From Symmachiella dynata (GTDB lineage Bacteria; Planctomycetota; Planctomycetia; Planctomycetales; Planctomycetaceae): a DNA stretch of 64,000 bases. Positions 5,231 to 62,886 of the stretch are shown here, piece by piece. The stretch spans positions 3,649,001 to 3,713,000 of the forward strand of contig NZ_CP036276.1 in the NCBI RefSeq assembly GCF_007747995.1. Reading direction: 5' to 3'. Under the pieces are notes generated by a model. That model made no database searches and had not been told where the DNA came from. It saw only the letters and a list, made by a program, of their open reading frames with translations. Position numbers and translations under genes: made by a program. How positions within the stretch are numbered: the stretch's first letter is position 1; each line of letters begins with the position of its first letter.

Positions 5231-5971
5231 TCAGCGGTTTTGCCCACCGCGACGGCGTTGGCCGAGGTCTTCGTAATACTTACGAACCTCGGGAGCGTAT
5301 TTGGGTAGGTACTCTTCGCTGAAGTTGTTGAGCAACCGATTGCGGATCGCTTCGGGGAGGTGTCCCCAAATGTCTTTGAGCATGCGTTTGCGGGCCGCCT
5401 CGGCGCGGGCTTTTTCCGCTTTTGATTTATCGAACCGTTCCTCGGTTTCTTGGCCGTCTTGGGGACGCCGTTCGGTTTTCTGTTGTTCTTGTTGCTTTTG
5501 TTGTTGGTCTTTTTGCTGCTGGGTTGTGTCTGGTTTTGGTTGTGGTTTTTTGTCGTTCTGGGGCGGCGGCGGTTGGTTGTTGGGATTGGGGGGTGGCGGC
5601 GGGGGCTGATTTTGCAGCAGTTCAATCAGTTGCGTCAAATCGTCGAGCACTTTTTGCTGCAGTTGTTGCGTTTCTTGTCCGGGCTGCCCTGCTTCGATGC
5701 GCTGGCTGACGTCGCGCATCTGATTGACGGCGCGATCCAACACCTCGCCCGGCTGTTGCTGCGCGTCCTCGGGAAGCAGCGACTCCTCTAATTCTTTGTC
5801 AATCGCTTCATCCCGCGGTGACGCTTTGGGTTCTGCATCCTTGGCAGCGGGCTCGGTCACAGCGGGCTCGGTCACGGCGGGCGGCTGTGATTCGGTCTCG
5901 TCTCCGCAAACCGGCAGTCCACTTAATGCCCACGCGAGGTATAGGCCAGCGGTCAGATGGATTCGGTTCAT
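5231..5971 (-). CDS. Secreted Pro/Gln-rich protein of unknown function
   Basis: A 246-residue protein with a signal peptide (hydrophobic residues 4-22) and acidic repeats of the form AVTEPAVTEPA at about 32-45. A low-complexity stretch rich in Pro, Gln and Lys covers about 120-200, and a conserved-looking C terminus (HLPEAIRNRLLNN, EYLPKYAPEVRKYYEDLG) closes the protein. Its ATG overlaps the stop of the giant coiled-coil gene by 4 bases (ATGA), so the two are probably translationally coupled. The C-terminal segment, the only ordered part, resembles tails seen in planctomycetal proteins encoded beside such coiled-coil proteins; that comparison is from memory. It probably works with its neighbour at the envelope. 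No enzymatic motif is visible. Confidence 0.72.
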   Translation of the reverse strand: MNRIHLTAGLYLAWALSGLPVCGDETESQPPAVTEPAVTEPAAKDAEPKASPRDEAIDKELEESLLPEDAQQQPGEVLDRAVNQMRDVSQRIEAGQPGQETQQLQQKVLDDLTQLIELLQNQPPPPPPNPNNQPPPPQNDKKPQPKPDTTQQQKDQQQKQQEQQKTERRPQDGQETEERFDKSKAEKARAEAARKRMLKDIWGHLPEAIRNRLLNNFSEEYLPKYAPEVRKYYEDLGQRRRGGQNR

Positions 5972-8900: not shown

Positions 8901-9723
8901 CTTCCAACACCAACAGACTGGAGACGAAGACGTCGCGGGGTTGATCCTCCCGGTCGGTGATCGATTGGGCACTGAGTTGTTGCGACGTTTCCTGCTTGTC
9001 GGGAAATCGAAAGAAAATCATCCCGTTATCCGGCAGTCCGCCCCGGGCGTTGTCGATGTGGAGGGTCAGGGTTTCACCAATGGCGATGCGTAGCGGTGTC
9101 TCTGGGGAATGGACCGATTCAAAATCGTCTCCCAGAATCCGCAATTGCGTTTGTTTAGGCCAGTTTGTATCCGACAGCGGCAAGACCATCCGCTTGAAGG
9201 CAATCGAGGCATCCGCGCGATTCAAACCGACCAAAACCGCCGTCGCCAAGCAGACCGCAGTTGCCGCCAGCATGATCCGTTTGACGTTGCGCGTTTGGAC
9301 CACTTCGTCGAAGTCGACGTTTTGTAGGTGTTTGCTGGTTTCGTTCACAACCTGCTGTTGCAGTTCGGGGGAACCCAGTGCGGGATCGATGTCGTGATTG
9401 AGGAATTGTACGGTACTGGCCAGACTGTCCTTCAGTTCTGGGTGCAGGCGTTCAATCCGCAGCGCTAAATCGAGATCATTCAATTGGACCAGCAACGGCG
9501 CTATTAACCGACGATAGGCAATATAGGCGGTCGCGGCGACAACCGTTAGGCTGAGAATCAAGCGGACACCGGAGTCGCTGAAGCGAAACAGCCAATCCGC
9601 GATGCCAATGACGGCAATCGAGCCGACAAACACCGTGATCAGCCAGGAGACGCCATTGACGAACAGCGCGCGACGTACGCGTTGCCGTAGTTCGCTGAGT
9701 CGCGTTTCCAGTGGAGTGAACAT
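5968..9723 (-). CDS. Giant coiled-coil membrane protein (1251 aa) of the BatA/VWA cluster
   Basis: The start is placed at the ATG of MFTPLETRLSELRQR, because the frame upstream of it codes for Cys-rich nonsense overlapping the neighbouring gene. Two N-terminal membrane segments lie at about residues 22-42 and 55-75. A large extracytoplasmic beta-rich portion to about residue 560 follows, with Ig-like or DUF4175-like character (phrases such as VPEIEITDPTTNLRV). The rest is a long Gln/Glu/Lys/Arg-rich coiled coil to about residue 1200 and an acidic Glu/Pro tail. The gene reads in series after the VWA protein (43 bases between them) and overlaps the Pro/Gln-rich gene by 4 bases. A structural or scaffolding role at the cell envelope is inferred; no catalytic motif is seen. 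Confidence 0.8.
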   Translation of the reverse strand: MFTPLETRLSELRQRVRRALFVNGVSWLITVFVGSIAVIGIADWLFRFSDSGVRLILSLTVVAATAYIAYRRLIAPLLVQLNDLDLALRIERLHPELKDSLASTVQFLNHDIDPALGSPELQQQVVNETSKHLQNVDFDEVVQTRNVKRIMLAATAVCLATAVLVGLNRADASIAFKRMVLPLSDTNWPKQTQLRILGDDFESVHSPETPLRIAIGETLTLHIDNARGGLPDNGMIFFRFPDKQETSQQLSAQSITDREDQPRDVFVSSLLVLEGPIQFRVEAGDDLEMPWFTIEAIVPPNLEDLQITLTPPEYLGQPSVDLPAGTGHVEGLLGTTVTTKARADKPLVDAHLHVYEQSQPLVLGPEGLTFGAEFTIAQPGNSIYWLAFRDREGHDSGQSRHYELRGIEDRVPEIEITDPTTNLRVTAVAKIPLRMVAKDDLGLKEIRLVYHTGSKSGAENPDDADATQPQMHTGAQTVTKDADDAEATEPQMVSVFNDSTRPQHQSATYEFDLSTMDLKPGDTITLHAEATDAFDLGEEHVGKSLPRIFTVVTSEEKQQELADRQADIMADLELAQKQQDAAHQQVRQLQIQLNEAGELRPQDVDTLQQTEMTQRRAAQKLSDAETGVRKRAQQLLNDIRDNAIDDPKTTRRMTKLDEELKRLGQENLPQIEEDLTAVRKREQSKVANDNAQTDPPKKSADATAEQQQALERAEKNQQIVAESLNAALKEMAEWRTHRDLAGDLEQLVESQQKLNQDAEKLGKQTLTKLPAELTKQEQTDLQRLGERQRQAAKRLDQLKSKVEETRKSSADQDSTESQLLEEVAEQMQEQSTAANMREAARQLQKNDVGAAMQNQRELLKQLQDLQDTLHNRRQTDTAEMVKKLKQEEKKLAELKDRQKELMRKIEKAQDLQDPEERQQELKKLAKEQQQLREEAQKMTRRLRRLQIQKGRDATARAADRQQQAAEQLKKDDPIAAAEQAQEALDDMEQAQRELAQQRREAEEQLAQEQLEKIADELRAMIPRQQGVIDETARLQGRYAEQGKWSRGTLRSLIGLTEVQRGLQSETEKLRETLTAAEVFALALKGAARDMDRAAVRLSERQADETTQRHAMRAKQRFIDLVEALKPEKKAPQNKQNPQQQGPGPGGAQGGPPTDGIPQLSQLKVLKSMQSDLRERTIELAALIEAADEITPANQQALQDLALEQTELADLTRNLTKITAAAEEEPVEEEPATEESIIEEPAAEEDVLELKQ

Positions 9724-9766
9724 CGTACTGTCGTTTCCCTCGCGTAACGTCAAAATCCAACGTTCA

Positions 9767-12160
9767 TCATACCAGTCGCAGCCGTTTCCGCAAAATCCAT
9801 TCCCCGCACAACAAGCCGACAAACAGAGCAAACGTGAGCCAGAAATTCCAAAGTTGTTTGGGAGCTTCGGTTTCCAAAGGAACGGGATTACCGCGCGGAA
9901 CAGCCGCCAAAACGTCGTCGGTTTCCAACAATGTATGGTACGCGCCGCCGGTGATCTTGGCAGCCTGAGTCAATTCGGGGACGTCCATTTTGACGGTACG
10001 CATTTCGCCCATCGGCGAGGTGACGCGAAAATCGACGCTAGGGGGTGCGTTTTCAAACGTGGGTGAGGCAATGAATGCGTGATAGGTCCCTTCAACGGGA
10101 TTCGCGAAGGTCCCTTCAAAAATGGTCGGCGCCTGAGGCAATCGCTTGAGGTCCACCTGTCGCCGGGGCCCTCCGTGCTGTTGCACGACCACTGTCACGG
10201 CGGTCTCTGAGGCGGAAATCAAACGGTCGTCGAGAAAATTCACACGAAACTGAACCGGTGTGCCGCGCATATATTCCTTGCGATCAACCGTCAACTCCGC
10301 ACCACGATCTCGGCCGAGCAATTTGGATCGGCTGAGGTAGCGAATGACCTGGACCCAATACCGGCCAAAATACAAATCCCCCACACGGTACCGCCAACGC
10401 CATGTTTCATCGGTGGCATGAAAAATCACCTTGCCGCCGCCGAAACGGTGCATGGCGATGATGGGGATCTCCTCGTTGCCGGAATCCGTTTGGGGATGCA
10501 CGGCAAATGCGACCGCGCCGCGCTTCAGCCGGACGGACTCGAACGCCCACATGAACGGCGGCAAATCTCTCCAGACCTGTTCGTCGTCGCGTTCGTTATC
10601 GGTCAGACGGAAAATCGATGTTCCTTTGCGGCCATCAAGCGTCACCACGGGTCGAAAGCCGTCGCCGATGAGGGATGGGTTGTCTTTGCGGACCGCGTCG
10701 GAGACTTGTACCGGCAACAGGTCTTCTAGCGGCGTCCCCCGGTAACCGATCGGGTTGTGCTGCGTCCCGGCGATCATCAACAGCCCACCACTTTTTTTGT
10801 TGACGAATTCCTGCAGTTCCTGCTGCGTTCTTTCCGTGAGAAACGCCAAGTCCATGTCGCCAAACAAGATCACATCGTAGGAGAACAGGTCCTCTTCGTT
10901 GACGGGAAAATTTTGCAGGGCGGTCCGATCCTCGTCCGCATACTCCGCATCGGCGTCTTGCAGAACAGTCTTTAATTCGACCGTCTTTTCCCGCTCTAGC
11001 AAGGTTTTCAAAAAGCGGAATTCATAACGCGGCAGGGAATCGGCCAGGAGCACGCGGATTTTTTCTTTGCGAACGCTCACGCCACGGACTTGGCGGTTGT
11101 TCTCGGTGTTGGCCTCTTTGGGAAGCAACTGCACGTCGACCACATATTGAAACTCACCAACTTCGGGCGGCGTGTAGGTCAATTCCAATTTCTGGGTGCG
11201 TTCGTCGGCATCGAGTTTAATCCGCTCGGTCGTCAGCGCGTCTCCGGTCGATTCGTCTCGAAGTGTGACCGACACGGTTTTCCCGGCGTAGCCCCGCGCA
11301 CTCAATGTATATAAAAAGGTGATGGGATCATTGACGAACGCGACGTCGTCAACCTGGACGTCGGTGATTTCCAAGTCGCGAACCGGTTGCGCGTCCCCCA
11401 GTCCCAGCGCGAAAATCGGCACTCCCTTGCGGCGGGCGAAAGTCGCTGCGGCGGAGAGTTTTTCCCCTTCGGTCGTGATGCCGTCGGAGAGCAAAATGAT
11501 GGCCGTGGGTGGCGCGCCGCGCAGATCGTTCAACACCGACCTTAGCCCCTGCCCCAATTGCGTCCGGTCTCCTTCGGCTTCCAAGTCCCGCAATTGCGGT
11601 AGGACTTCGTCGACATCCTCGGGTGTGATGCATTCGGCGACCTTGGTGGCAGCCCCAGCCAATTTATAAATCCGTAATTTATGCCGCTGCAACAAGCGCT
11701 TAAGAAAAGCCCCTTCGTCACGCAGCAAAATCGCTTTACCGACATTCAGCGGCGTGACTTCTTCGTAGTCAGCGGCGTCTAATAGCGTGCGTGCGGTGGA
11801 ACGTAGGTCGTCATCCTGGTACGGGTCCGCCGCCGTCATACTACCGGAGTTGTCCAAAATCACCACGGCATACGGCAAGCCGGTGCGATCGACCGACAGA
11901 AACGCGCTGCTCAGCATGAACAGCAACAGAAAAATAGCGCCCAGCCGCATCGCGACCAACAGCCCCCGCATCCACCGCGAAGCTCCGGTGGCATCGCGGC
12001 GATAAACCAGGATCACCACGGCAACAGCGGCCACAGCGAACAGCAACAACACCCAATCGGGCCAAGGAAAGTCACTACGATATCTCCACGACGTCCCCTG
12101 CCCCGCCCCTGCGGGGGGGATCTCAAGCAGCCATTCCATGGTCTTTTGCAGCGGGGACAT
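9767..12160 (-). CDS. VWA-domain membrane protein with glutamine-amidotransferase-like region
   Basis: A 797-residue protein. Hydrophobic segments at about 33-50 and 65-88 are followed by a von Willebrand A domain with the MIDAS motif DNSGSM (about residue 105) and a second conserved block ILLSDG. An Ig-like segment comes next, then a class I glutamine-amidotransferase-like fold region (VILFGDMDLAFL, GGLLMIAGTQHNPIGYRGTPLEDLLPV) without an obvious catalytic Cys. A C-terminal membrane helix ends in LLCGEWILRKRLRLV. This architecture is familiar in Planctomycetota and Bacteroidota beside MoxR/BatA genes. It is the first gene of a minus-strand operon that includes the coiled-coil and Pro/Gln-rich proteins. 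The likely role is metal-dependent protein interaction at the membrane. Confidence 0.85.
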   Translation of the reverse strand: MSPLQKTMEWLLEIPPAGAGQGTSWRYRSDFPWPDWVLLLFAVAAVAVVILVYRRDATGASRWMRGLLVAMRLGAIFLLLFMLSSAFLSVDRTGLPYAVVILDNSGSMTAADPYQDDDLRSTARTLLDAADYEEVTPLNVGKAILLRDEGAFLKRLLQRHKLRIYKLAGAATKVAECITPEDVDEVLPQLRDLEAEGDRTQLGQGLRSVLNDLRGAPPTAIILLSDGITTEGEKLSAAATFARRKGVPIFALGLGDAQPVRDLEITDVQVDDVAFVNDPITFLYTLSARGYAGKTVSVTLRDESTGDALTTERIKLDADERTQKLELTYTPPEVGEFQYVVDVQLLPKEANTENNRQVRGVSVRKEKIRVLLADSLPRYEFRFLKTLLEREKTVELKTVLQDADAEYADEDRTALQNFPVNEEDLFSYDVILFGDMDLAFLTERTQQELQEFVNKKSGGLLMIAGTQHNPIGYRGTPLEDLLPVQVSDAVRKDNPSLIGDGFRPVVTLDGRKGTSIFRLTDNERDDEQVWRDLPPFMWAFESVRLKRGAVAFAVHPQTDSGNEEIPIIAMHRFGGGKVIFHATDETWRWRYRVGDLYFGRYWVQVIRYLSRSKLLGRDRGAELTVDRKEYMRGTPVQFRVNFLDDRLISASETAVTVVVQQHGGPRRQVDLKRLPQAPTIFEGTFANPVEGTYHAFIASPTFENAPPSVDFRVTSPMGEMRTVKMDVPELTQAAKITGGAYHTLLETDDVLAAVPRGNPVPLETEAPKQLWNFWLTFALFVGLLCGEWILRKRLRLV

Positions 12161-48058: not shown

Positions 48059-48451
48059 CTACACCGCGATTTTCTTCCACTTCCGCCGCTGTTTACGCCA
48101 ATCGGCTACCGCCACGATCGCCCGCAGGTCGCGCTCGGTCAGCGTGTCCTTTCCCTGCTCCACCGGCGGCAGGAACAGCAACTCCTCCTGGATGTCTGGT
48201 GCCAGATTGAGCAAATTCATGATCTGCGTGACTCGTGCCCGGCTGACATGCCCAAGCGTCGCCAGTTCCGCCTGGTTGGCCACGACGCCGTCGTTGAGAA
48301 GACCTTCGAAGCGAACGGCCAGGGCCATTAACTTGGCCACACGGGGCAAACGTCGCGGAGCTGGGGGTGGCTCTACGCCCGTGCGCAATTGCTTTTTGCT
48401 CCTCTGCCCACGTCCGAAATGGACTTTCGATTTGATCGTGACTCCGCTCAT
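48059..48451 (-). CDS. Small HTH protein of the recombinase operon
   Basis: A 130-residue basic protein. The segment NQAELATLGHVSRARVTQIMNLLNL (in part, about 58-82) forms a helix-turn-helix resembling ParB/KorB-type HTHs. Its ATG overlaps the recombinase stop by 4 bases. Small HTH proteins follow recombinase genes in several DUF2924-recombinase loci; this one may act as a directionality factor or regulator, which is inference. Confidence 0.8.
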   Translation of the reverse strand: MSGVTIKSKVHFGRGQRSKKQLRTGVEPPPAPRRLPRVAKLMALAVRFEGLLNDGVVANQAELATLGHVSRARVTQIMNLLNLAPDIQEELLFLPPVEQGKDTLTERDLRAIVAVADWRKQRRKWKKIAV

Positions 48452-50004
48452 ACCGCGACCTCCTCAAATTCAAGTTCCTCGGCCACCGCGTTGAAGCCAG
48501 TCGGGCGGAACGTGACCGAAACGGTCCCCGCGTCGCCGTCGTAGTCTACCCGCTCAATGAGCAGTTCCAGGACGCGTGCCTGTTCCCTTAGGCTGAGCGC
48601 TTCCCACACCGCCTCGAACTGCTGCAGCGAATCAGCCACGTCCCGTTCGGTGACCGCTTCGCGGCGTAATCTGTCAGACTCGACACGGATTTCGGTTAGA
48701 CGTTGTTCGGCAGTCCGCATGCGATCCAACAAGTCGACCTGCCGGTCGGTGCTACGAGAATTATCCGGCGCCGTGACGAGGGAACGCATCTCAGCATTGG
48801 CATTTTTCAGGTCCTGCTCGATACCGGTTCGTTCGGTTTCCAGTTTGTCGAGCGATGCTTGCACCTGTTCGCGGAGTTGGTCGAGCGTGGCGGCGATGAG
48901 ATCGGGCTCGTTCGCGACCTGCCGTACTTGGTCAATGACGAAACGCTCGATTTCGCCGGCGGGAATCGACTTCGACGGGCAATTGTCCCAGCCCCGTTTC
49001 TGGGCATTTCCGCAGACATAGTAGCGATAGCGTTTTTTGCCGCCTTTGGTCGTGTGCGAAGGGATCATCCGGCAACCGCACGGCACACAATGCACTAGGC
49101 CTTTTAGCAACGATCCAAATTGATTGCGCACGTGTTTGCCGCCCGTGCGGTGGTTCAACCGCAATAGACGCTGGACTTGCTCGAACACTTCAGTATCGAT
49201 GATCCCCTCATGCTCCCCTTCGTAGATTTCGTCCTTGTAGCGGACCTTGCCAATGTAGGCGACGTTCGTCAGCAGACTATGTAGTGTGTTCTTGTTGAAG
49301 GCCCGTCCACCACGTTGCTTGCCCTTCTTGGTCGTCCATTGCTTGGTGGACCACTGGTGGCGATCCAATTCGGCGATGGTGGCGAGGAGCGATTGCTGTT
49401 CGAGGTAGGATTCGAAGATCGTGCGGACGCGGGCCGCTTCTCGATGATTGACCACTAATCTGGAAACGCTGCGATCGATGTCGTAGCCGAGGATTGGCGC
49501 GCCGCCAACGTATTTCCCTTTACGGCGTGCTGCGGCCATTTTATCGCGCGTCCGTTCGCCGATGATCTCGCGTTCAAATTGCGCGAAGGACAATAGGATG
49601 TTGAGCGTTAAACGGCCCATGGAACTGGTCGTATTGAATTGTTGCGTCACCGAGACAAACGAAACGCCATGTTTGTCGAACGTTTCCATGATGCGGGAGA
49701 AATCAAGCAGGCTCCGGCTGAGACGGTCGACCTTATAGACGACGACACAATCGACCTGCCCGTTTTCAATATCGTCCATTAGTCGACGCAAGGCTGGCCG
49801 TTCGACGTTCCCGCCTGTGAACCCGCCATCGTCATACCGGGTTGGCAGGCACTCCCAGCCTTCGCCTTTCTGGCTCGCAATGAGCGCCTCGGCAGATTCC
49901 CGCTGCGCGTCCAGCGAATTGAAATCCTGGTCGAGACCCTCTTCGGTCGATTTTCTGCTGTATATGGCACAGCGGATTGTGCCATTGCGTTCCGAATTCT
50001 TCAT
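48448..50004 (-). CDS. Large serine recombinase
   Basis: The start is the ATG of MKNSERNGTIRC, overlapping the DUF2924 stop (ATGA); upstream codons in the same frame are noise. The 518-residue protein has a resolvase domain with catalytic Ser19 in YSRKSTEEG, then DFNSLDAQRESAE, VYKVDRLSRSLLDFSRIME (in part) and ERTRDKMAAARRKG. The recombinase domain (PILGYDIDRSV) and a zinc-beta-ribbon with CVPCGCRM and later CGN...NCPSKSI follow, and a C-terminal coiled coil ends it. Such enzymes integrate phages and conjugative elements at att sites without a tRNA requirement. The att site cannot be identified from one side. Confidence 0.93.
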   Translation of the reverse strand: MKNSERNGTIRCAIYSRKSTEEGLDQDFNSLDAQRESAEALIASQKGEGWECLPTRYDDGGFTGGNVERPALRRLMDDIENGQVDCVVVYKVDRLSRSLLDFSRIMETFDKHGVSFVSVTQQFNTTSSMGRLTLNILLSFAQFEREIIGERTRDKMAAARRKGKYVGGAPILGYDIDRSVSRLVVNHREAARVRTIFESYLEQQSLLATIAELDRHQWSTKQWTTKKGKQRGGRAFNKNTLHSLLTNVAYIGKVRYKDEIYEGEHEGIIDTEVFEQVQRLLRLNHRTGGKHVRNQFGSLLKGLVHCVPCGCRMIPSHTTKGGKKRYRYYVCGNAQKRGWDNCPSKSIPAGEIERFVIDQVRQVANEPDLIAATLDQLREQVQASLDKLETERTGIEQDLKNANAEMRSLVTAPDNSRSTDRQVDLLDRMRTAEQRLTEIRVESDRLRREAVTERDVADSLQQFEAVWEALSLREQARVLELLIERVDYDGDAGTVSVTFRPTGFNAVAEELEFEEVAV

Positions 50005-50501
50005 TTGCGGGCCCCCGTTCCGTTCAGACGGAAGAACAGAAACCCATTCGTGTGCGAGCCGGTGATCGCCTTGGCGACCGCGGAAAGGGAGGCATAGATT
50101 TCGCCCTCGAAGTCGAAGCCCGTCGGGAGTACGGTGACCTGCACGGTCGCTCCCTTGTATTCGCGAGTCAGAATCGTGCCCGGCATGGGGATGCGTTTGT
50201 CGTGCGTCGTCGTGATCTTGCCATGGACTTTGCGGCCACGAACTGTGGGTGCCGGTTTCGTCCTCGGCGGCGCTTTCATCCGCAGGTCCGCGTCGTTGGC
50301 AATTTCCAACGCCCGCCGACGTGCTCGTTCGGACAGATCCCCTTCCACATTGGCCTGCAACCGCCAAGCGATCCGCTTGATCAACCATTGTTTGTGATTG
50401 GAGCGGCATTCCTCCTGGAATACGTCTTCGTAGCGTTCCCGCAATTCCCGGACAGTCATCTGCTGCAATTTGGAAACTTCCTTGCCGATATTCAACGCCA
50501 T
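50001..50501 (-). CDS. DUF2924 protein
   Basis: A 166-residue basic protein. The start is the ATG of MALNIGKEV, preceded by AAGGAGA at ideal spacing. The N-terminal half has LQQMTVRELRERYEDVF and KQWLIKRIAWRLQ, and the C-terminal half has RKVHGKITTTHDKR and PGTILTREYKGATVQVTV, with GEIYASLSAVAKAITG. This is the DUF2924 family, usually encoded directly upstream of a serine recombinase in phages and integrative elements. Its role is unknown; DNA binding in support of the recombinase is often supposed. It overlaps the recombinase start. Confidence 0.88.
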   Translation of the reverse strand: MALNIGKEVSKLQQMTVRELRERYEDVFQEECRSNHKQWLIKRIAWRLQANVEGDLSERARRRALEIANDADLRMKAPPRTKPAPTVRGRKVHGKITTTHDKRIPMPGTILTREYKGATVQVTVLPTGFDFEGEIYASLSAVAKAITGSHTNGFLFFRLNGTGARK

Positions 50502-53508: not shown

Positions 53509-54594
53509 GTGGCTGATCATCGCGACAACTGGATGCGTGTTTCGCACGGTGATCCCTGCCCCGTTTGCGGCAAACCGGACAACTGTTCGGTTTCCAATGA
53601 CCGGAAAGTGGTGTGGTGCGGCCGCGTTTCCGACGGCGCCTTGCGGACCAATGCCGGTGGGCAATATCTACACCGCTTGGATGACGATCCGTATGACCGG
53701 AATCCGCCACCTCCGGTGCGTATACGGCCATCGACTCGTTCGACTTCGCCGACACAAGACTGGCCCGCGCTGGCGGAGCGGTTTGCCAATGGTGCTGAAG
53801 AACATCGTCAGCGGTTGGCCGGCGAATTGGGCGTTTCCGCTACGGCACTTGCTGCCCTCGGCGTCGGTTGGAACGTTGAACGTTTCTGTTGGACTTTCCC
53901 TGAACGGGATGCGAGCGGTCAAATTATTGGGATCGCCACGCGGCGACGGGACGGCTCGAAAATCCGCATGAAAGGCGGGCGTACGGGGCTGACGTACGCG
54001 GCCGACTGGGATGCGGGTGACGGTCCGATTCTGTTGGTGGAAGGCGGAAGCGACACTGCATCGCTCTTGACGATTGGCCTTAGCACCGTGGGTCGGCCGT
54101 CCAATTGTGGTGGTGTGGATCATCTGGCTGGCATGTTGTCCGAGGTTGATCACAACCGTGAGATCATTGTCATCGGAGAACGGGACGAGAAACCAGATGG
54201 CAAATGGCCGGGCCGCGACGGAGCGGTTCGCACTGCCAAACGTCTCGCCGAAGAACTCGAACGGCCAATCGCCTGGGCGCTGCCGCCCGATAACGCCAAA
54301 GACGCCCGTGGTTGGCTCAATGTGATGCCGGAACTTCCCACCGATCGATTGGCGGACCTATTCGTTTCCGGTTTGGAGACGACTGTCATCAGTCCACCAA
54401 TCGTCATCCGGCCGCCGAAACCGACCGGACCTACGGTGGCGGTCGACGATTGGCGCGGTCAGATGCTGCAAGTCCGAATCCGCTCGCTCGATTGTCCGGG
54501 CGTGTACATTGACGCCAGTACAACCGGAGCGGGAAAGTCTCACGTCGATCTGGCCGTCATTCTCTGGGCGTTGCGACGGAGGAACGCCGTATGA
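53509..54594 (+). CDS. Zn-ribbon/Toprim primase ending in a helicase Walker A motif
   Basis: A 361-residue protein; ATG start 12 bases after the preceding gene. A zinc-ribbon with four Cys (17, 20, 26, 37) is followed by a Toprim domain with Glu178 in LLVEGGSD and an acidic loop GERDEKPDG (about 223-231). A linker rich in Pro follows, then a C-terminal segment that looks like the first part of a helicase: DASTTGAGKSHVDLAV, a Walker A motif at 337-344. The next gene begins in an overlapping ATGA and carries helicase motif Ia onward. Replication priming of the element is the likely role. Confidence 0.8.
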   Translation: MADHRDNWMRVSHGDPCPVCGKPDNCSVSNDRKVVWCGRVSDGALRTNAGGQYLHRLDDDPYDRNPPPPVRIRPSTRSTSPTQDWPALAERFANGAEEHRQRLAGELGVSATALAALGVGWNVERFCWTFPERDASGQIIGIATRRRDGSKIRMKGGRTGLTYAADWDAGDGPILLVEGGSDTASLLTIGLSTVGRPSNCGGVDHLAGMLSEVDHNREIIVIGERDEKPDGKWPGRDGAVRTAKRLAEELERPIAWALPPDNAKDARGWLNVMPELPTDRLADLFVSGLETTVISPPIVIRPPKPTGPTVAVDDWRGQMLQVRIRSLDCPGVYIDASTTGAGKSHVDLAVILWALRRRNAV

Positions 54595-56378
54595 GGTCGC
54601 TACTTATTTATCCAACCCACGAAAATTGTGACGAGGTGCGTGAGCAACACGAGGGAAACGGCATCATTGCCGCCTGCTATCCATCACGTATTACTGAGGA
54701 CACGGGCGAGCGCCCACAGAATTGCTGGAACGACAACGCCAACATTGCCGAGGGGATGGGCCTATCGGTCGTCAAGGCCGTCTGCCCGGCATGCGAGTTT
54801 CGCAAAAAATGCCGCGAGTCGGGTTATTTGGGCCAGTTATCTACGGTGGCAGATGCCCACGTGGCAATTGCGACGCACAAGCGAGCCGAATACACCGGCC
54901 TCGCGGAATTATCGCAAAGCCGTGAGTACCTTTCGATTCATGAAGATGCAATCAGCTTGCTGAGGCCGCCGGCCGAGATCAGTCTCAGTGACATCATTCA
55001 GGCACGGCTGTTGGTTCAAGACTACATACTCAATGATCCGGCATCCCTCAATTGGTTTGGCGATGCGACCCGTGTCGACGACGAGGGCAATCGGTACCAG
55101 GATGAGGAACTGGCCATCCGCCGGGAACGCCAATACGTGTTTTTTCGGCTGATGTCAGGTCTTTTAGAGCATTTATTCCGGGCTATTGAAGCTGCCGACC
55201 AGACGGATGAATGGTCGCCTCCGGAGACAGCCAGAGTTCCCGCCGGTTTTGAGCGCACTCTTTTCTTTAGCATCCGCCGCGCGAAAATCGATTTCCAGGA
55301 TCAGCCATGGCGGTTCTTGCTGACGGCCGCTGCGGGCAAACTCCATTTGGCGGCAATCATTGTTGAGCGGCGATTTCACAAGGGGGGCGGACAGGGGAAT
55401 GCGTATCTGAAGAAGTCGGTCGTCGGCGTGATCGATAATCCGCCGCCGATAAATTGCGTGGTATGGATCAATGACGCTACGGCCGACACCGAACATGTCG
55501 AAGCGATCGTTGGCCACACGGTTCACCAAGCCACACCGGACGGACGCATCGAGCTCCGCAAGAAGGCGGTGCAAATCCCGCGCGACATTACCCGGCGGAC
55601 CTCCGCCAAGACCGTTCGCGGCCTGATTCGCGGAGTGATGGCCGACCGACCGCAGTTCCGCCGCATTGGCATCATTGGCCACAGTACACACATGTCGGTC
55701 CTGAAGAAGTTGGGGGCCGGTTTCGATGAGCGGATTGTCAAAACCAGTTATTTCGGCAGCGGCGAGGAAAGATCCTCAAACGACTGGCACCACAAGTGTG
55801 ATCTGATCATCGTTGCCGGCACGCCGCGGATTCCGCCTGCAGCGATTGCCAAACATCTCGTGCAAATCGGCGAAATGAGCGCCGCAACCTGCGAACCGGA
55901 ATGGGGTGTTATCTACTGGCACGGCGAGACCGAGTCGCATGAACCCACGAAAGTGAATTCGCGCGGCTACAAGAATGAGGCGTGGCGACGCGCCCACCAA
56001 GATCTCGTCCGCGCTCAGATCGTGCAGGCCACCGGTCGGGGCCGCGGCATCCTGGAGACCGGGTGCGAAGTCCTCGTCCTCTCCGATGAGGAGTGTGGTC
56101 TGCCCCTTTCGGATTCCGGAGTCGAAATCCTCAACGATGCCAGTGTTGCGATATTGAACGCGCTCAGTGAATTAACGACGGAAAATCCTAATAAGTATAT
56201 ATTAGGAAAACCCGTCGTTAGCACCGGTCAGCTTGCCAAGACGACAAGCCTGTCCCGTTCGCGCTGCCGGGATTTGCTTCGTGACCTCGAACGCCGCGGG
56301 CTCGTTCAAAAGATTGGCGAACGCTCCGGTTGGCGTCTTGTGTTGAGTTCCGCCGAGGAGGCAGCGCCATGTGCTTAA
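54591..56378 (+). CDS. XPD/DinG-like iron-sulfur helicase lacking its own Walker A
   Basis: A 595-residue protein; the ATG overlaps the primase TGA (ATGA, a -1 step). Residues 4-12 (LLIYPTHEN) correspond to helicase motif Ia. Cys45, Cys65, Cys68 and Cys74 form a C-x19-C-x2-C-x5-C pattern as in XPD/DinG [4Fe-4S] clusters, followed by VADAHVAIATHKRA, the usual companion of that cluster. HEDA at about 117-120 stands where DEAH is expected. Later GERSSNDWH, IVAGTPRIP and AQIVQATGRGRG match motifs of the second helicase half (Q-x2-GR-x-R, motif VI). A winged-helix domain (QLAKTTSLSRSRCRDLLRDLERRG, in part) ends it. No Walker A is in this ORF. Confidence 0.78.
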   Translation: MRSLLIYPTHENCDEVREQHEGNGIIAACYPSRITEDTGERPQNCWNDNANIAEGMGLSVVKAVCPACEFRKKCRESGYLGQLSTVADAHVAIATHKRAEYTGLAELSQSREYLSIHEDAISLLRPPAEISLSDIIQARLLVQDYILNDPASLNWFGDATRVDDEGNRYQDEELAIRRERQYVFFRLMSGLLEHLFRAIEAADQTDEWSPPETARVPAGFERTLFFSIRRAKIDFQDQPWRFLLTAAAGKLHLAAIIVERRFHKGGGQGNAYLKKSVVGVIDNPPPINCVVWINDATADTEHVEAIVGHTVHQATPDGRIELRKKAVQIPRDITRRTSAKTVRGLIRGVMADRPQFRRIGIIGHSTHMSVLKKLGAGFDERIVKTSYFGSGEERSSNDWHHKCDLIIVAGTPRIPPAAIAKHLVQIGEMSAATCEPEWGVIYWHGETESHEPTKVNSRGYKNEAWRRAHQDLVRAQIVQATGRGRGILETGCEVLVLSDEECGLPLSDSGVEILNDASVAILNALSELTTENPNKYILGKPVVSTGQLAKTTSLSRSRCRDLLRDLERRGLVQKIGERSGWRLVLSSAEEAAPCA

Positions 56379-56602: not shown

Positions 56603-58183
56603 ATGATGAAATCCGCGACAGGCATGACGGAACGAAAACGAAAGTCGCAGCGTGTGCGGCAGGCGATCATGGAGCATTGGCGGTCACTGAGCGATCGCGA
56701 GATTGCTCTTGGGCTGCAGGTCAGCAACAGGACTGTCTCCCAACATCGGAAACGACTGGAAGATGAGGGGCGGATTCTTCCCCGGTCCGAAAGTACACAG
56801 GCTGTCGGGGCATGCCAGTTCGAGGTGTGTACTTCCGCGATTTCGCCGGCCCCGCTCAACGACCAGCTCTACGATCCGGTCGATGAATCCGAACCATCAT
56901 TCTGTGCGCTGGTTGAGAACATCCGCGAAAATGGAATCTTGGAACCAATCGTGGCCAGCGGCGATGGCTACATCCTCTCGGGGCATCGTCGCCACGCGGC
57001 GGCACGATGTGTGGGGTTGGAACGCATTCCGGTCCGCATCCGGCACGACGTGTCGTACGTCGGCGACCGGGATGAGTTTCTACGGTTGCTCGCAAGCTAC
57101 AACCGCCAGCGGGTTAAGACGACTGCCGAACAGGTGCGTGAGGAGGTCGCGTTGATGTCAGAGCGTTCCTGTTCGCGGGTTCGCCGGTTTCGGCGCGATT
57201 CGGCAGTTGTCGACGGCAATTGCACGGTTGCACTTCGAAAACGCAAACGCCGGTCGGCGATTCGGGACAAGATGGCACTGCGGGAGGCAATCATAAAGGT
57301 CGTCCAAGACGAGCAACGCAATTGGCCGTTGAGCGATCGGTCTGTGTTTTATCGGTTGCTCAATATCCCTGGGCTGGTCCGCAACGACCGCACGCGCGTA
57401 CCCTTCGCCAATACTCCTGCCGCTTATGACGACGTGACCAATATGCTCACCCGGCTACGCCTGGACGGCTCGGTGCAGTTTGAGGCGATCTCCGACGAAA
57501 CGCGGCCGGTCGTGGTGTGGGACACACATCGCGCCGCAGGGGATTTCGTCCGCCGGGAATGCGATCAGTTCCTCACCGGCTATTGGCGCGATCTGTTGCA
57601 AAGTCAGCCGAATTGGATCGAACTCCTGGTCGAGAAGAACACGGTCGCCAGCCAACTCCGCAGCGTCGCTGGCAAATACACGCTCCCCATGACCAGCGGT
57701 CGCGGCTATTCGTCACTGCCGCCGCGAAAGGAAATGGTCGACCGGTTCAAGTGCAGCGGCCGCGAACACCTCGTGGTGATCGTCGTCAGCGACTTCGATC
57801 CGGAAGGGGAAGACATTCCCGCCAGCTTTGGGATTTCGCTGCGCGATGACTTCGATGTTTCTGCCGACAGATTACGGATCGTCAAGGCCGCGCTCACCGC
57901 CGAACAAGTCCGATCGATGGATCTGCACGAAGGGCAGCTCTCGAAGGAGACCTCGTCGCGGTATCGGCGATTTGTCGAGGTTCATGGCGACCGGGCTTGG
58001 GAATTGGAATCGCTCACCGCAGACCAACTACGGGAGATTGTGGAGGCCGCCATCCGCGGCGTCCTCGACCTCGACGCCTTCGAAGCGGAGGTGGAGCGTG
58101 AGCAGCAGGAACAATGCGAGCTGACTACGAAACGTCGACGATTGCGGGAAACGCTTATCGATGACATCGACGACCTCGATTGA
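56603..58183 (+). CDS. HTH-ParB-Spo11/TopoVI-A-like fusion protein
   Basis: A 526-residue protein with two adjacent ATGs (56603, 56606) after GGAAGG. Three regions are seen. Residues about 28-56 form an HTH (SLSDREIALGLQVSNRTVS). Residues about 95-175 form a ParB N-terminal domain (ILEPIVASGDGYILSGHRRHAAA, in part). Residues about 220-500 look like the catalytic part of topoisomerase VI subunit A/Spo11: SDRSVFYRLLN with Tyr250 in the 5Y-CAP position, then a Toprim with Glu344 in LLVEKN and Asp397/Asp399 in SDFDPEG, the DxDPxG of the family, then AWELESLTADQL. It would bind DNA through ParB/HTH and cut or relax it through Tyr250. A TopoVI-B (GHKL) partner is not seen. Confidence 0.72.
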   Translation: MMKSATGMTERKRKSQRVRQAIMEHWRSLSDREIALGLQVSNRTVSQHRKRLEDEGRILPRSESTQAVGACQFEVCTSAISPAPLNDQLYDPVDESEPSFCALVENIRENGILEPIVASGDGYILSGHRRHAAARCVGLERIPVRIRHDVSYVGDRDEFLRLLASYNRQRVKTTAEQVREEVALMSERSCSRVRRFRRDSAVVDGNCTVALRKRKRRSAIRDKMALREAIIKVVQDEQRNWPLSDRSVFYRLLNIPGLVRNDRTRVPFANTPAAYDDVTNMLTRLRLDGSVQFEAISDETRPVVVWDTHRAAGDFVRRECDQFLTGYWRDLLQSQPNWIELLVEKNTVASQLRSVAGKYTLPMTSGRGYSSLPPRKEMVDRFKCSGREHLVVIVVSDFDPEGEDIPASFGISLRDDFDVSADRLRIVKAALTAEQVRSMDLHEGQLSKETSSRYRRFVEVHGDRAWELESLTADQLREIVEAAIRGVLDLDAFEAEVEREQQEQCELTTKRRRLRETLIDDIDDLD

Positions 58184-58217: not shown

Positions 58218-59447
58218 GTGATGAAGATTGAACAATGGCCCATTGCACGCGTGAATCCGTACCCGAACAATCCGCGGTGCAACGATCAGGCAATCGATGC
58301 GGTGGCAAAATCGATCGAGGAATTCGGATTTCGTCAGCCGGTCGTGGTGGATCAAGAAGGCGTAATCATTGTTGGGCACACAAGACACAAAGCAGCATTG
58401 AAACTCAACTTTAAGAAAATCCCCGTCCACGTGGCCAAAGAACTGTCGCCGGCGCAGGTGCGGGCATACAGGCTTGCAGACAACAAAACCAATGAGTTGG
58501 CCGAGTGGGATTACAACTTGTTGCCGATTGAACTTTCGGAATTGGAGCAGAGTGGTTTTGATCTGGGGCTGATTGGATTTGATGCGGACGAACTATCCAA
58601 ACTGCTTTCCCCCGATGGCAAAGAAGGGCTGACCGATCCGGATGACGCTCCCGCGCCACCCGATGAAGCGATCACGCAACTGGGCGACCTGTGGATACTT
58701 GGTGAGCATCGCTTGCTGTGTGGTGATTCCACATCTTCGGAAGACACGCTGCGTGTGATGAATGGCGAGAAAGCCGCACTCGTCGCGACTGATCCACCCT
58801 ATCTCGTCGATTACACTGGAGCGAGACCGAATGAGTCCGGAAAAGACTGGTCAGAAACTTATCGAGAGATTGACATCAGCGACGCGGAAGGCTTCTTCAC
58901 GCAGTTGTTCACATGCATTCTCGAAGTGGTGGCCCCGAAAGCAGCGATCTACTGTTGGCACGCTCACAAGCGGTGCGGTGTGATCCAACGTATTTGGGAT
59001 CAACTGGGCATCCTCGACCATCAACAGATTGTGTGGGTTAAGCCGACGGCGGTCTTCGGCCGCGTCTATTGGCACTTCCGTCACGAGCCGTGCATGATGG
59101 GTTGGGTCCAGGGCAGCCAGCCGGAGCACGATGGCCGTCATGAGGTCGATTCGGTCTGGAATGTCGACTGGGAAGGTAAGGCCCGCATTGTGGGGAATAA
59201 ACACCCGACCCAGAAACCAGTCGAGCTTTTCGCACGCCCGATTCGGAAGCACACACGCACCGGAGATGTCTGTTTCGAGCCGTTCAGTGGCTCGGGAACA
59301 CAAATCCTGGCAGCCGAACAATTAGGCCGCCGCTGTTTCGCTATCGAGATCGCTCCGACATTCGTGGATGTTGCCGTCCAGCGTTGGGAGCAGTTCACCG
59401 GGAAGAAGGCGGAGCGGGTCTCGGCCGTGCAGGAGGCAACGGCATGA
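58218..59447 (+). CDS. ParB-domain DNA methyltransferase
   Basis: A 409-residue protein. Residues 1-90 form a ParB-like domain (PYPNNPRCNDQAIDAVAKSI, in part; VVGHTRHKAA written IVGHTRHKAA here). The methyltransferase part has the catalytic DPPY at 192-195 in TDPPYLVDY and, near the C terminus, the SAM-binding FEPFSGSG at 353-360, the order of the beta-class N6-adenine or N4-cytosine enzymes. ParB-methylase fusions are common in phages and integrative elements, where they protect element DNA or act with partition. It is 34 bases after the ParB-TopoVI-A-like gene and followed by an overlapping gene. No restriction enzyme is adjacent. Confidence 0.9.
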   Translation: MMKIEQWPIARVNPYPNNPRCNDQAIDAVAKSIEEFGFRQPVVVDQEGVIIVGHTRHKAALKLNFKKIPVHVAKELSPAQVRAYRLADNKTNELAEWDYNLLPIELSELEQSGFDLGLIGFDADELSKLLSPDGKEGLTDPDDAPAPPDEAITQLGDLWILGEHRLLCGDSTSSEDTLRVMNGEKAALVATDPPYLVDYTGARPNESGKDWSETYREIDISDAEGFFTQLFTCILEVVAPKAAIYCWHAHKRCGVIQRIWDQLGILDHQQIVWVKPTAVFGRVYWHFRHEPCMMGWVQGSQPEHDGRHEVDSVWNVDWEGKARIVGNKHPTQKPVELFARPIRKHTRTGDVCFEPFSGSGTQILAAEQLGRRCFAIEIAPTFVDVAVQRWEQFTGKKAERVSAVQEATA

Positions 59448-59815
59448 TCTATTTGGCCAGCCCCTATTCACACACCGACGCCATCGTCCGCGAGCGCCGG
59501 TTCCGTGCAGCCTGTCGTGTTGCGGCGCGTTTGATACGCTCCGGTGTGGTCGTGTTCTCGCCGGTCGCGCACGGGCATGCGATCTCTCTCTACGGAGTGC
59601 CGACGGATTGGCAGTTTTGGGAGCCACATGACCGACGGTTCTTGGAACAGTGCCATGAGGTCGTTGTGCTCATGCTTGACGGTTGGCAAGAGAGCGTTGG
59701 CGTGCAGGCTGAAATCCAAATCGCAGACGAACTGGGCAAGCCAGTACGGTATCTGGCACCGGCGGGAAACGGGGCGACGACGTTGGCCCACGTCGCCGAG
59801 GAGGCGGAGCGTTGA
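59444..59815 (+). CDS. DUF1937 family protein
   Basis: A 123-residue protein. The ATG overlaps the methyltransferase TGA and has AGGAGG seven bases upstream. The start MIYLASPYSHTDAIV and the later FSPVAHGHAISLY are typical of DUF1937, related to nucleoside 2-deoxyribosyltransferases. QESVGVQAEIQIADELGKPV gives the conserved Glu near the C terminus. Members are frequent in phages, possibly for nucleotide salvage or base modification. The function is not established. Confidence 0.85.
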   Translation: MIYLASPYSHTDAIVRERRFRAACRVAARLIRSGVVVFSPVAHGHAISLYGVPTDWQFWEPHDRRFLEQCHEVVVLMLDGWQESVGVQAEIQIADELGKPVRYLAPAGNGATTLAHVAEEAER

Positions 59816-60395: not shown

Positions 60396-60614
60396 ATGGC
60401 AGAAAAACACCCCGAATCGATGAATCCGAACGCCCTGCCAATCGATGTGGCGGCACAGCTCTTGAGCAAGGCCGGTGGACGCGTCGTCAGCGAAGAAACA
60501 CTTCGCTCCGACATCGATGCCGGAGCGCCAACGAACCCCGATGGCACGATTAATCTCGTGCACTATGCCGCTTGGAACGTGCAACAAATAGCAGGGATGA
60601 CCGATGGCAATTGA
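60396..60614 (+). CDS. Small HTH-like protein upstream of terminase (small-terminase candidate)
   Basis: The start is the ATG of MAEKHPESM after GAAAGGTGG. The 72-residue protein aligns over its length with the first 60 residues of the terminase: LPIDVAAQLLSKAGG...VSEETLRSDIDAGAP...NLVHYAAWNV against LRPSELVRLMNST...INERQLYRHRSRAGF...DLLRYVAWLV. Its last 11 bases overlap the terminase start. It is probably a DNA-binding component, perhaps a small terminase subunit, with a duplicated domain; both ideas are inference. Confidence 0.6.
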   Translation: MAEKHPESMNPNALPIDVAAQLLSKAGGRVVSEETLRSDIDAGAPTNPDGTINLVHYAAWNVQQIAGMTDGN

Positions 60615-62886
60615 CCCGCGCAACTTGCGGCCGTCCGAACTTGTGCGGCTGATGAACTCCACGCCGTTGGGTGAGGTGATCAACGAACGGCAGTTGTATC
60701 GCCATCGTTCGCGCGCGGGGTTTCGGATTGGCGATGGGAAATCGGTGGACCTACTGCGGTATGTCGCTTGGCTCGTCATCGAGCGGCACACTCCCAAGCC
60801 GGAAACCAATGGCGATCCGTACGAAACGCTCAAAGATCGGGCGCGGGCCCGCAACGCGGCTCTTTCTCTCGCCGGCCGGGACATCGGCGAAATGCCGGCT
60901 GTCATCGATCCGTCCAGAAAGGCAAAAGCGGAAACCGATTTCTGTTTTTTCTGCGAAGCCTACTTCCCGTTGACGTTCTACTTAGAGTGGTCCGCCGATC
61001 ATCAAAAGGTGATGGCCAAAATCGAACAGGCCGTATTACACGGCGGACTGTTTGCCATGGCCATGCCTCGCGGTTCGGGTAAAACGACGATTTGTGAATG
61101 CGCCTGCATCTGGGCCGTGCTGTTCGGGCACCGCGAGTTCGTCTGCCTCATCGGATCGGACGAGGGCCATGCGATGGACATGCTTGACTCAATCAAAATG
61201 GAACTTGATGGGAACGATTTGTTATTGGCCGATTTCCCTGAAGTCGTGTTCCCGATCCAGAGCCTGGAGGGGATCGCCAACCGCTGCAGCGGTCAGCTCT
61301 ACAACGGCGAGCGGACACACATCGGCTGGACGGCGAAGGAGGTCGTGCTGCCCACAATTCCGAACTCAAAAGCAAGCGGTGCGATCATCAAGGTGGGCGG
61401 GATCACCGGACGGATTCGCGGGATGAAGTTCAAACGACCCGACGGGCACACGGTGCGTCCATCGCTCGTTGTGTTGGACGACCCGCAGACGGACGAGTCG
61501 GCCCGTAGTCTTTCACAATGTGCGAATCGCGAAAGCATTCTGGCGGGAGCCGTGTTGGGTTTGGCGGGCCCCGGCAAAAAGATCTCCGGCATCATGCCCT
61601 GCACGGTGATTCGGCCGGGCGATATGGCCGACAACATCCTCGACCGGGACAAACATCCCGAGTGGAATGGCGAGCGTACGCGGATGGTCTATTCGTTTCC
61701 CTCGAACGAAAACCTCTGGGCGCGGTATGCAGAGATACGGGCCGAAGGACTGCGCAACGGAGATGGCGGCAAGGCGGCGACGGACTTTTACAGAACTCAT
61801 CGTGCCGAGATGGACGCTGGCGCGATCGTGGCGTGGCCCGAGCGCTACAATCCTGACGAATTGTCGGCCGTTCAGCACGCGATGAACCTCAAATTGCAGG
61901 ACGAGGCGGCGTTCTTCGCGGAGTATCAGAACGAGCCACTGCCCGAGGAGAAAATCGATGACGATCTGCTCACGCCGGACCAAGTCGCCACGAAAACCAA
62001 CGGCATGCGTCGCGGCGAGATTCCGCTGGCTTGTAACCACCTCACCATGTTCATCGACGTGCAGCAGAAGCTGTTGTTTTATCTCGTGGCCGCCTGGGAG
62101 GACGATTTCACCGGCTACGTGGTCGACTACGGCAGTTATCCGGACCAGAAACGGCAATACTACACATTGCGGGACGCGCGGCAGACACTGGCGGCGGTAG
62201 CAGAGGGGACCGGACTGGAAGGTTCCATCTACGCCGGCCTCGAAGCCCTGACCGGCGATCTCCTCACCCGCGAATGGCGTCGGGACGACGGAGCGGCAAT
62301 GCGGATTGAGCGCTGTTTAATCGATGCCAACTGGGGGCACTCCACCGACGTCGTCTATCAATTCTGCCGGCAGAGTTCTCATTCCACGATATTGACGCCC
62401 TCGCACGGCCGGTTTGTCGGCGCATCGACCATTCCCTTCTCAGAGTACAAGCGCAAACAGGGAGAACGCGTGGGATTGAACTGGCGGATTCCCAACGTTC
62501 GTGGCAAGCGAGCCGTGCGGCATGTGGTCTTCGATACGAACTGGTGGAAATCGTTCGTACACGCGCGGCTGGCTGTTGCCATGGGCGACCGCGGCTGCTT
62601 GTCGCTGTTCGGCTCGAAAGCCGAGACGCACCGGTTGTTCGCGGAGCACGTCACCGCCGAATACTTCGTCAAAACAGAAGGACGTGGCCGCAAAGTCGAT
62701 GAATGGAAAATGCGTCCCGAGCAATCGGACAATCACTGGTTGGATTGCCTGGTTGGAAGCGCGGTGGCGGCCTCGATTCAGGGGGCAGTCTTGTTCGGGA
62801 CCGGTGCTTCATCGCCCAAGGAAAAAAAGCGGCTCAAGCTTTCGGAGTTGCAGCGGAGCAAGTGGCAGGTGGTGGGACGGGACTAG
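60604..62886 (+). CDS. Phage-type terminase large subunit
   Basis: A 760-residue protein. An HTH-like N-terminal domain (about 5-60), Walker A MPRGSGKTT at 154-162, the Walker B LVVLDDPQTDES at 288-299 and C-terminal nuclease-like acidic residues (FIDVQQK; DANWGHSTD; NHWLDCLVG) are visible. The order and length fit GpA-like DNA-packaging terminases. It should pump element DNA into capsids, but no portal, protease or capsid gene follows within 1.1 kb. The next gene is a papain-like peptidase. The element may therefore be a satellite, a remnant, or have its capsid genes beyond the window. Confidence 0.88.
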   Translation: MAIDPRNLRPSELVRLMNSTPLGEVINERQLYRHRSRAGFRIGDGKSVDLLRYVAWLVIERHTPKPETNGDPYETLKDRARARNAALSLAGRDIGEMPAVIDPSRKAKAETDFCFFCEAYFPLTFYLEWSADHQKVMAKIEQAVLHGGLFAMAMPRGSGKTTICECACIWAVLFGHREFVCLIGSDEGHAMDMLDSIKMELDGNDLLLADFPEVVFPIQSLEGIANRCSGQLYNGERTHIGWTAKEVVLPTIPNSKASGAIIKVGGITGRIRGMKFKRPDGHTVRPSLVVLDDPQTDESARSLSQCANRESILAGAVLGLAGPGKKISGIMPCTVIRPGDMADNILDRDKHPEWNGERTRMVYSFPSNENLWARYAEIRAEGLRNGDGGKAATDFYRTHRAEMDAGAIVAWPERYNPDELSAVQHAMNLKLQDEAAFFAEYQNEPLPEEKIDDDLLTPDQVATKTNGMRRGEIPLACNHLTMFIDVQQKLLFYLVAAWEDDFTGYVVDYGSYPDQKRQYYTLRDARQTLAAVAEGTGLEGSIYAGLEALTGDLLTREWRRDDGAAMRIERCLIDANWGHSTDVVYQFCRQSSHSTILTPSHGRFVGASTIPFSEYKRKQGERVGLNWRIPNVRGKRAVRHVVFDTNWWKSFVHARLAVAMGDRGCLSLFGSKAETHRLFAEHVTAEYFVKTEGRGRKVDEWKMRPEQSDNHWLDCLVGSAVAASIQGAVLFGTGASSPKEKKRLKLSELQRSKWQVVGRD

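Follow-up and report, generated by a model that had tools for sequence, protein, structure and literature searches.

One open reading frame (ORF) of Symmachiella dynata encodes a single chain that joins a ParB-type fold for binding nucleoside triphosphates (NTP) to a Mini-A module, a relative of Topo VI-A and Spo11. The ORF lies in a stretch of 64,000 nucleotides from assembly GCF_007747995.1 (contig NZ_CP036276.1, positions 3,649,001-3,713,000, forward strand). Here 'window' refers to this whole stretch, and its numbering is used in Table 1, where the parts of the gene are listed. A preliminary description of the window had proposed this architecture, which is borne out by ParB_N, phrog_6247 and alignment with Mini-A. 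Our preferred reading, with a probability of about 0.4, is that the fusion serves the replication of mobile elements: a ParB-type NTP switch would gate a Mini-A dimer that cleaves DNA through its tyrosine, and would stand in for the missing GHKL subunit.

Conservation of both halves

Alignment-based scans found 61 loci, 54 in genome contigs and 7 in viral contigs, and 41 of them hold an uninterrupted full fusion in one ORF. The other 20 are partial, reach a contig end, contain in-frame stops or frame breaks, hold Mini-A alone (e.g. L107-L109) or ParB only, or are otherwise joined (L092 and L093). By record label, which is subject to binning errors of metagenome-assembled genomes, the 41 are from Planctomycetota (33), Verrucomicrobiota (4), Victivallales (1) and Deltaproteobacteria (1), or are viral contigs (2). 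Fused rows were aligned as two sets. Set A2 has 42 rows, from loci usable for folding, and the other has 47 rows, namely the 41 loci, the window and five copies from genomes G000 and G001, with the interrupted copy of G002 (L047/L089) omitted. The 47 sequences are all distinct, with a median pairwise identity of 41%.

Residues N86, Y90, G127, R130, A133, L163, N167, R170, K172 and E180 of the ParB half are kept in 47/47 proteins. So are R246, Y250, L253, R286, D298, T300, R301, Q335, E344, K345 and T347, followed by P362, R367, G368, D397, D399, G402, G462 and E467, of the Mini-A half. The latter include Tyr250, Glu344, D397, D399 and G402 of the predicted catalytic motifs. The preliminary description would have been refuted had Tyr250 and DxD varied among homologues, and on this count it stands in full. 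P400 is found in 45/47, H128 in 46/47 and Q169 in 44/47, and in the Box I loop G111 occurs in 46, E114 in 38 and P115 in 44 of the 47. The only invariant tyrosines are Tyr250 and Tyr90. Arg170 and Arg246 are 75-82 residues apart in 47/47 proteins, and 77 apart in 27/47.

In six gene pairs, the ratio of nonsynonymous to synonymous substitution rates (dN/dS) was, where computable, 0.06-0.16 for ParB and 0.04-0.10 for Mini-A, and looser in the helix-turn-helix (HTH; 0.11-0.39) and the linker (0-0.65). In these pairs, ParB and Mini-A alike evolve under purifying selection and retain their key residues. A chance motif match was rejected, as the residues are present in 47/47 fusions and invariant in the 13-protein alignment described below, and dN/dS is low.

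The S. dynata genome carries three full-length copies (100, 94 and 57% identical to the window protein), and a search of 59 genomes, that of S. dynata among them, found complete or almost complete fusions in G000, G001, G002 and G017. The fusion is a sparse trait among Planctomycetota: in 392 genomes, full fusions occur in at least 4 (6 places) and Mini-A alone in at least 11 (matches better than 1e-29, one with an in-frame stop), these counts being lower bounds because no more than 4 candidates per genome were scored. No record among 50,697 phages or 72,556 plasmids covered at least 80% of either fused query (tblastn, E up to 1e-5). Interrupted or fragmentary copies are seen in related genomes (L047 in G002, L051 in G029, and L099), as expected of decaying mobile elements.

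The C-terminal half as Mini-A

The C-terminal half can be assigned by its sequence to the known family Mini-A, because it is homologous to phage and plasmid Mini-A and the catalytic columns are invariant across 13 aligned proteins, of which 10 are unfused. These columns are those of Tyr250, Glu344, Asp397, Asp399, Pro400 and Gly402. Tyr250 (in SVFYRLL), Glu344 (in LLVEKN) and D397-F-D399-P-E-G402 lie where the preliminary description had located them, and Tyr250, Glu344 and D397/D399/P400/G402 correspond to Tyr47, Glu127 and D180/D182/P183/G185 in Mini-A of Pseudomonas phage NP1. The family was reportedly named by Takahashi et al. in 2020; its naming is cited in the accessible parts of PMC8185306, PMC11302465 and PMC7614492. 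In the same group of sources, as far as accessible, a 2021 review gives archaeal Mini-A as lacking any characterisation.

By tblastn, 64 phage records matched, those listed (40) all within residues 204-504 of the query, and 15 plasmid records matched, of which 14 align to the Mini-A half and one to ParB alone. The matches include phage NP1, whose Mini-A serves as an example in a review figure (PMC7614492, accessible part), and a plasmid gene annotated Topo Mini-A. In PHROGs, phrog_6247 'DNA topoisomerase' covers residues 269-507 of the window protein (1.8e-32), and many ParB families match too. The likeness to Mini-A of NP1 (gp49) and of the archaeal plasmid P-7H_11 extends to the order of Tyr, Glu and DxDPxG, the lack of a B part, and phage or plasmid coding. 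Unlike these unfused examples of ~280-400 residues, the fusion has ~200 residues of (HTH-)ParB in front.

Similarity to Topo VI-A itself is near the detection limit. When PDB sequences were searched with phmmer, ParB/Spo0J ranked first for the window protein, and Topo VI was absent from the 16 rows (E up to 10). A profile of 13 Mini-A-containing rows had M. jannaschii Topo VI-A (1d3y) as its best match, at E 0.012 and over part of Toprim only, and aligned DfDPsG with TDGDPYG. The Mini-A half of the window protein had no Pfam match at E up to 1. TP6A_N (PF04406) had no match in the whole genome and none for the window protein at E up to 1, and weakly matched 2 of the 13 aligned Mini-A rows (best 0.053). 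Pfam Toprim was matched in just 1/42 fused members scanned (0.0066).

Structure models support part of the Topo VI-A/Spo11 fold previously proposed for residues 215-500. The Toprim part is supported by both models, full-length and Mini-A-only. The tyrosine-bearing part is supported by the Mini-A alignment and by the full-length model, whose alignment with 1d3y covers residues 220-487, but not by the Mini-A-only model, whose 1d3y alignment lacks the part at residues 220-300. In Foldseek, the best rows for the Mini-A-only model were Topo VI and Spo11, though they were weak (E 2.0e-3 and 6.1e-3). Spo11 structures were also among the matches of the full-length model, and the order of catalytic residues agrees with Topo VI-A/Spo11 by eye. 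In a BFVD structure search, the named rows among the best 50 were mainly ParB-type, many rows being without name.

A reading as an A-type module without a B subunit is supported. No GHKL match was found in the fusion protein by family scans or in nine scanned neighbouring proteins of the window fusion, and seven TIGR01052 (Topo VI-B) matches in the genome were all below cut-off, none beside the fusion gene.

A Toprim fold is shared with JetD/MksG of Wadjet. The protein could be a ParB-guided Toprim nuclease of that kind, which would destroy competitor or host DNA with a ParB clamp in place of the SMC loop extruder. We hold this to be the least probable of the readings considered, mainly on account of the tyrosine: MksG lacks a tyrosine candidate in its CAP-equivalent domain (PMC10123090, accessible part), in contrast to Tyr250 in 47/47 fusions. 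With the full-length model, Topo VI-A aligns over 216 residues versus 123-126 for the nuclease, although fold scores alone are insufficient to exclude it. The only PADLOC match was of the ParB region, to a methyltransferase model, and the genes that recur near the fusions serve mostly replication and integration. Among the nine neighbours scanned at the window locus, no SMC-type partner gene was seen.

The ParB half

The fusion has a ParB_N fold with a GxxR P motif. Pfam ParB_N matches residues 99-148 barely above its gathering score (27.0 bits versus 26.3, 4.7e-6), and TIGR00180 stays at 24.1 bits against a cut-off of 58.45. The ParB HTH domain (PF17762, named in a figure legend of PMC12704722, partly accessible) is absent from the Pfam matches of the window protein and from the list of 18 families matched in the 42 scanned members. 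A canonical partition protein of the ParABS type was rejected, as TIGR00180 is below cut-off, PF17762 is missing, and Mini-A follows the NTP fold.

The HTH at the N-terminus is predicted as three helices over residues 10-55, with a confidence score (pLDDT) of ~95, and HTH families match residues 15-58 below the Pfam cut-off only. Residues fill at least 40 of its columns in only 14/47 rows, and HTH_23 was matched in 5/42 members scanned. The preliminary description had taken ParB for a site-specific DNA-binding module, and this we do not uphold. From the sequences, a nucleotide switch or clamp appears to suit the ParB part better than a site-specific reader, because the conserved part is the NTP-binding fold, no ParB HTH is matched, and the N-terminal HTH is present in a minority.

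Proposed nucleotide-gated cleavage

Topo VI-A cuts as a dimer, leaving 5′-phosphotyrosyl breaks. The chemistry of such breaks is treated in the accessible part of PMC10123090, and binding of cytidine triphosphate (CTP) shuts the ParB clamp on DNA according to that of PMC12704722. We suggest that the fusion is a replication or maintenance protein of its element, whose ParB domain would bind NTP and dimerise or close on DNA, loading in window-type members perhaps being aided by the extra N-terminal HTH. Closure would unite two Mini-A modules as a cleavage dimer. Tyr250 would attack the DNA backbone while the Toprim acids bind metal, giving a 5′-phosphotyrosyl break that is resealed in the normal course. 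The nucleotide-dependent gate, which Topo VI has in its GHKL B subunit, would here be the ParB fold, possibly for relaxation or decatenation of replicating element DNA. Since both sets of key residues are common to close to fifty fused proteins, the cutter may answer to a nucleotide switch rather than to the usual ATPase partner.

Known enzymes resemble the fusion in part. In Topo VIII, the B and A parts form a single chain. It likewise links an A-type module to a nucleotide-binding part in mobile elements, as far as the source consulted in part goes; its nucleotide domain is GHKL, whereas that of the fusion is ParB-type. Topo VI-A shares the Toprim fold, and the full-length model reaches its CAP region, but the fusion has neither a TP6A_N match nor a B subunit above cut-off. 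The CTPases ParB, Noc and KorB and the ParB-fold fusions (PMC12704722, accessible part) share the ParB fold with Boxes I-III largely retained, differing in that the fusion has no ParB HTH match, reads GHRR for GERR, and has Mini-A as its partner.

Several points weigh against a nucleotide gate. In Box II, GERR has become GHRR, the canonical Glu being replaced by His. Unfused Mini-A manage without a ParB domain. Lack of NTP binding is common among proteins with a ParB fold, according to a source accessible in part. As to Box III, whose canonical motif is ENxQR, the fusions keep N and R in 47/47 and Q in 44/47, with Y, H, F, C or A at the Glu position. Which NTP a ParB fold prefers cannot be predicted with confidence, AlphaFold3 included (PMC12704722, accessible part).

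The replaced Glu of Boxes II and III and the ParB-fold proteins without NTP binding would favour a non-switching accessory, in which the ParB fold is a scaffold or a dock for DNA or protein on an ordinary Mini-A topoisomerase, comparable to that of the neighbouring ParB-methyltransferase. ParB_N is indeed a common phage add-on (PMC12704722, accessible part), which includes the next gene in the window, and in L093 an HTH-ParB part of this kind is attached to a methyltransferase. On the other hand, key NTP-contact positions of the boxes are kept in 47/47, including N and R of Box III, a box that orphan ParB often lack or have in divergent form (PMC12704722, accessible part), and the spacing to the Mini-A half is near-constant. 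We consider an accessory quite unlikely. Going further than NTP-gated cleavage, the fusion might represent a new type IIB-like topoisomerase class with the GHKL gate replaced by a ParB-type one for CTP or another NTP, where ParB domains closing round DNA would be mechanically linked to the double-strand gate of a Mini-A dimer and strand passage would be powered or timed by a nucleotide switch with no relation to GHKL; this stronger version is itself unlikely.

Genomic context

Many fusion copies lie near primases, integrases or recombinases of mobile elements. Genes within 8 kb of 50 fusion loci were clustered, each cluster being named from one representative. Integrase-like clusters were near 10, 5 and 4 loci, a serine recombinase near 7, a PrimPol-like protein near 9 (seven of these overlapping or at most 120 bases downstream), a primase-helicase-like protein near 4, and the ParB-methyltransferase near 8, the window counted. 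A cluster of unrecognised proteins (242-469 residues) is found at 7/50 loci, mostly directly downstream of the fusion; two members were tested and matched no family. Among further neighbours tested, those at L058, L082, L042 and, weakly, L096 are primase-like and those at L077 and L078 helicase-like; in one test set, five of ten neighbours were neither, four having no match and one being an integrase. At L062:3420-4607, L102:11316-12569 and alike, the fusion gene overlaps or abuts the next gene, which is PrimPol-like or unrecognised depending on the element.

In the window, a terminase and a recombinase lie nearby, in keeping with the mobile-element setting already suspected, and the element is probably a prophage or phage-derived. 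A sigma-like gene stands between the serine recombinase and the primase-like gene. No helicase family matched the product of 54591..56378 in family scans.

Table 1 Features of the fusion gene and its neighbourhood in the window
Feature	Position	Strand	Evidence and remarks
HTH-ParB-Mini-A fusion gene	56603..58183	+	526 residues; among 47 aligned full-length fusions
N-terminal HTH, residues 10-58	56630..56776	+	HTH_24 E 0.006, HTH_23 E 0.0078, both below cut-off; minority feature in family
ParB NTP-binding fold, residues 69-187	56807..57163	+	Box I G111..P115; Box II G127-H-R-R130-x-x-A133; Box III N167-x-Q-R170-x-K172
Connector, residues 188-219	57164..57259	+	Reduced model confidence
Mini-A N-terminal winged-helix/5Y-CAP-like part, residues 220-300	57260..57502	+	Alignment with NP1 Mini-A; 1d3y alignment of full-length model
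Tyr250 codon, predicted nucleophile	57350..57352	+	Y in 47/47; aligned with Tyr47 of NP1 Mini-A
Toprim fold, residues 331-486	57593..58060	+	Structure matches of both models (full-length, Mini-A-only)
Glu344 codon, Toprim catalytic acid	57632..57634	+	E in 47/47
D397-F-D399-P-E-G402 metal-binding motif	57791..57808	+	D397, D399, G402 in 47/47; aligned to 1d3y TDGDPYG by profile
Large serine recombinase, likely integrase of element	48448..50409	-	Resolvase, Recombinase, Zn_ribbon_recom
Primase-like gene of replication module	53509..54594	+	phrog_239 DNA primase/helicase 8.8e-5
Gene overlapping primase-like one	54591..56378	+	C-terminal winged helix, HTH_24 1.5e-4 below cut-off; helicase-like by eye only
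ParB_N-DNA methyltransferase (N6_N4_Mtase), next gene	58218..59447	+	Family scans
DUF1937 / nucleoside 2-deoxyribosyltransferase-like gene	59384..59815	+	Family scans
Phage terminase large subunit, gpA type	60604..62886	+	PF20454 5e-25; phrog_38 3.3e-33

Such neighbours bear on another possibility, that the protein is a targeted break-maker. HTH and ParB would then be loaders, and Spo11-like cuts at or close to a particular site of the element (an origin or recombination site) would start replication or recombination with no strand passage. Integrase-type genes near several fusions, Spo11 structures among the fold matches, the HTH in the window clade and the lack of a B subunit above cut-off in the genome all fit. 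However, the HTH columns are filled in only those 14/47 rows, and a priming break would not be needed where elements encode a primase, as several fusion-bearing ones do. We see a targeted break-maker as somewhat unlikely.

Elsewhere in the window, a minus-strand ORF of 1287 codons (5968-9831) encodes a protein that by eye appears coiled-coil and rich in Gln, Glu and Lys. A very strong AT skew (-0.44 at 6001-8000) coincides with it.

Origin of the fusion and possible exchange of partners

A maximum-likelihood tree of Mini-A modules had 69 rows, namely the 47, three more fused and 19 unfused, and was unrooted; L120, whose ORF is split, and L132, a duplicate of L107, were omitted. A single branch (100/100; 100% of 200 bootstrap trees) divides the 50 fused from the 19 unfused rows, which is consistent with a single fusion event, although a one-branch split cannot rule out other fusions because the fused rows were collected with fused queries. 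The unfused proteins scoring highest against the Mini-A profile of the fused family (L131, L133 and L107, 208-220 bits) are all from Planctomycetota, L107 being labelled Brocadiaceae and the other two sharing one family. As a candidate precursor, a stand-alone ParB beside unfused Mini-A was looked for with a ParB profile (E up to 1e-4) and not seen at 24 loci, which comprised 13 added ones (10 unfused and 3 fused), 4 further unfused loci, L107, L108 and 5 phage or plasmid loci. The profile matched the three fusion genes and three ParB-methyltransferases (L055, L134 and L143).

The window fusion is mosaic relative to its 94% sister. Upstream genes and the HTH and ParB parts are mostly at 84-100% DNA identity, and identity drops from ~57600 onward into the methyltransferase gene. 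For the ParB-methyltransferase (58218-59447), comparison with L040:11611-12936 of the same genome gave 44-66% DNA identity per 200-base bin in surroundings of mostly 69-100%. The gene looks as if exchanged as a cassette, though aligning across an insertion could account in part for the low bins.

L093:953-2284 is one ORF with an HTH-ParB part 71.5% identical to window residues 10-181, followed by a methyltransferase part 55% identical to the window's ParB-methyltransferase, and no Mini-A. Unless this ORF is an assembly or deletion product, the ParB part would be exchangeable between partners. At L092:9014-11995, an ORF of 993 residues runs from ParB and Mini-A into a part matching primase-type phage families, and may be a further fusion or a frame error.

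Discussion

The fusion had been thought little described, and no recognisable description of a ParB-Mini-A fusion came up in the full-text literature searched, which did not extend to most subscription journals or to the paper that founded the Mini-A family. A search for work on planctomycete phages brought up nothing related. In the main text of a 2025 survey of ParB-fold fusions, as accessible (PMC12704722), topoisomerase, Spo11 and Toprim have 0 occurrences. That survey drew its list of partners from Pfam-A and may have overlooked Mini-A, since this half of the window protein has no Pfam match at E up to 1. PMC5512222 covers Toprim primases and DdrB-like ParB with 0 occurrences of Spo11 in its accessible part. 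No account of what controls DNA cutting by Mini-A was found in the literature searched.

Mini-A are partnerless relatives of Topo VI-A and Spo11, for which the ParB fusion offers a single-chain handle on the control of cutting. The fusion would link ParB-fold switches beyond partition with the origin of Spo11-type break control.
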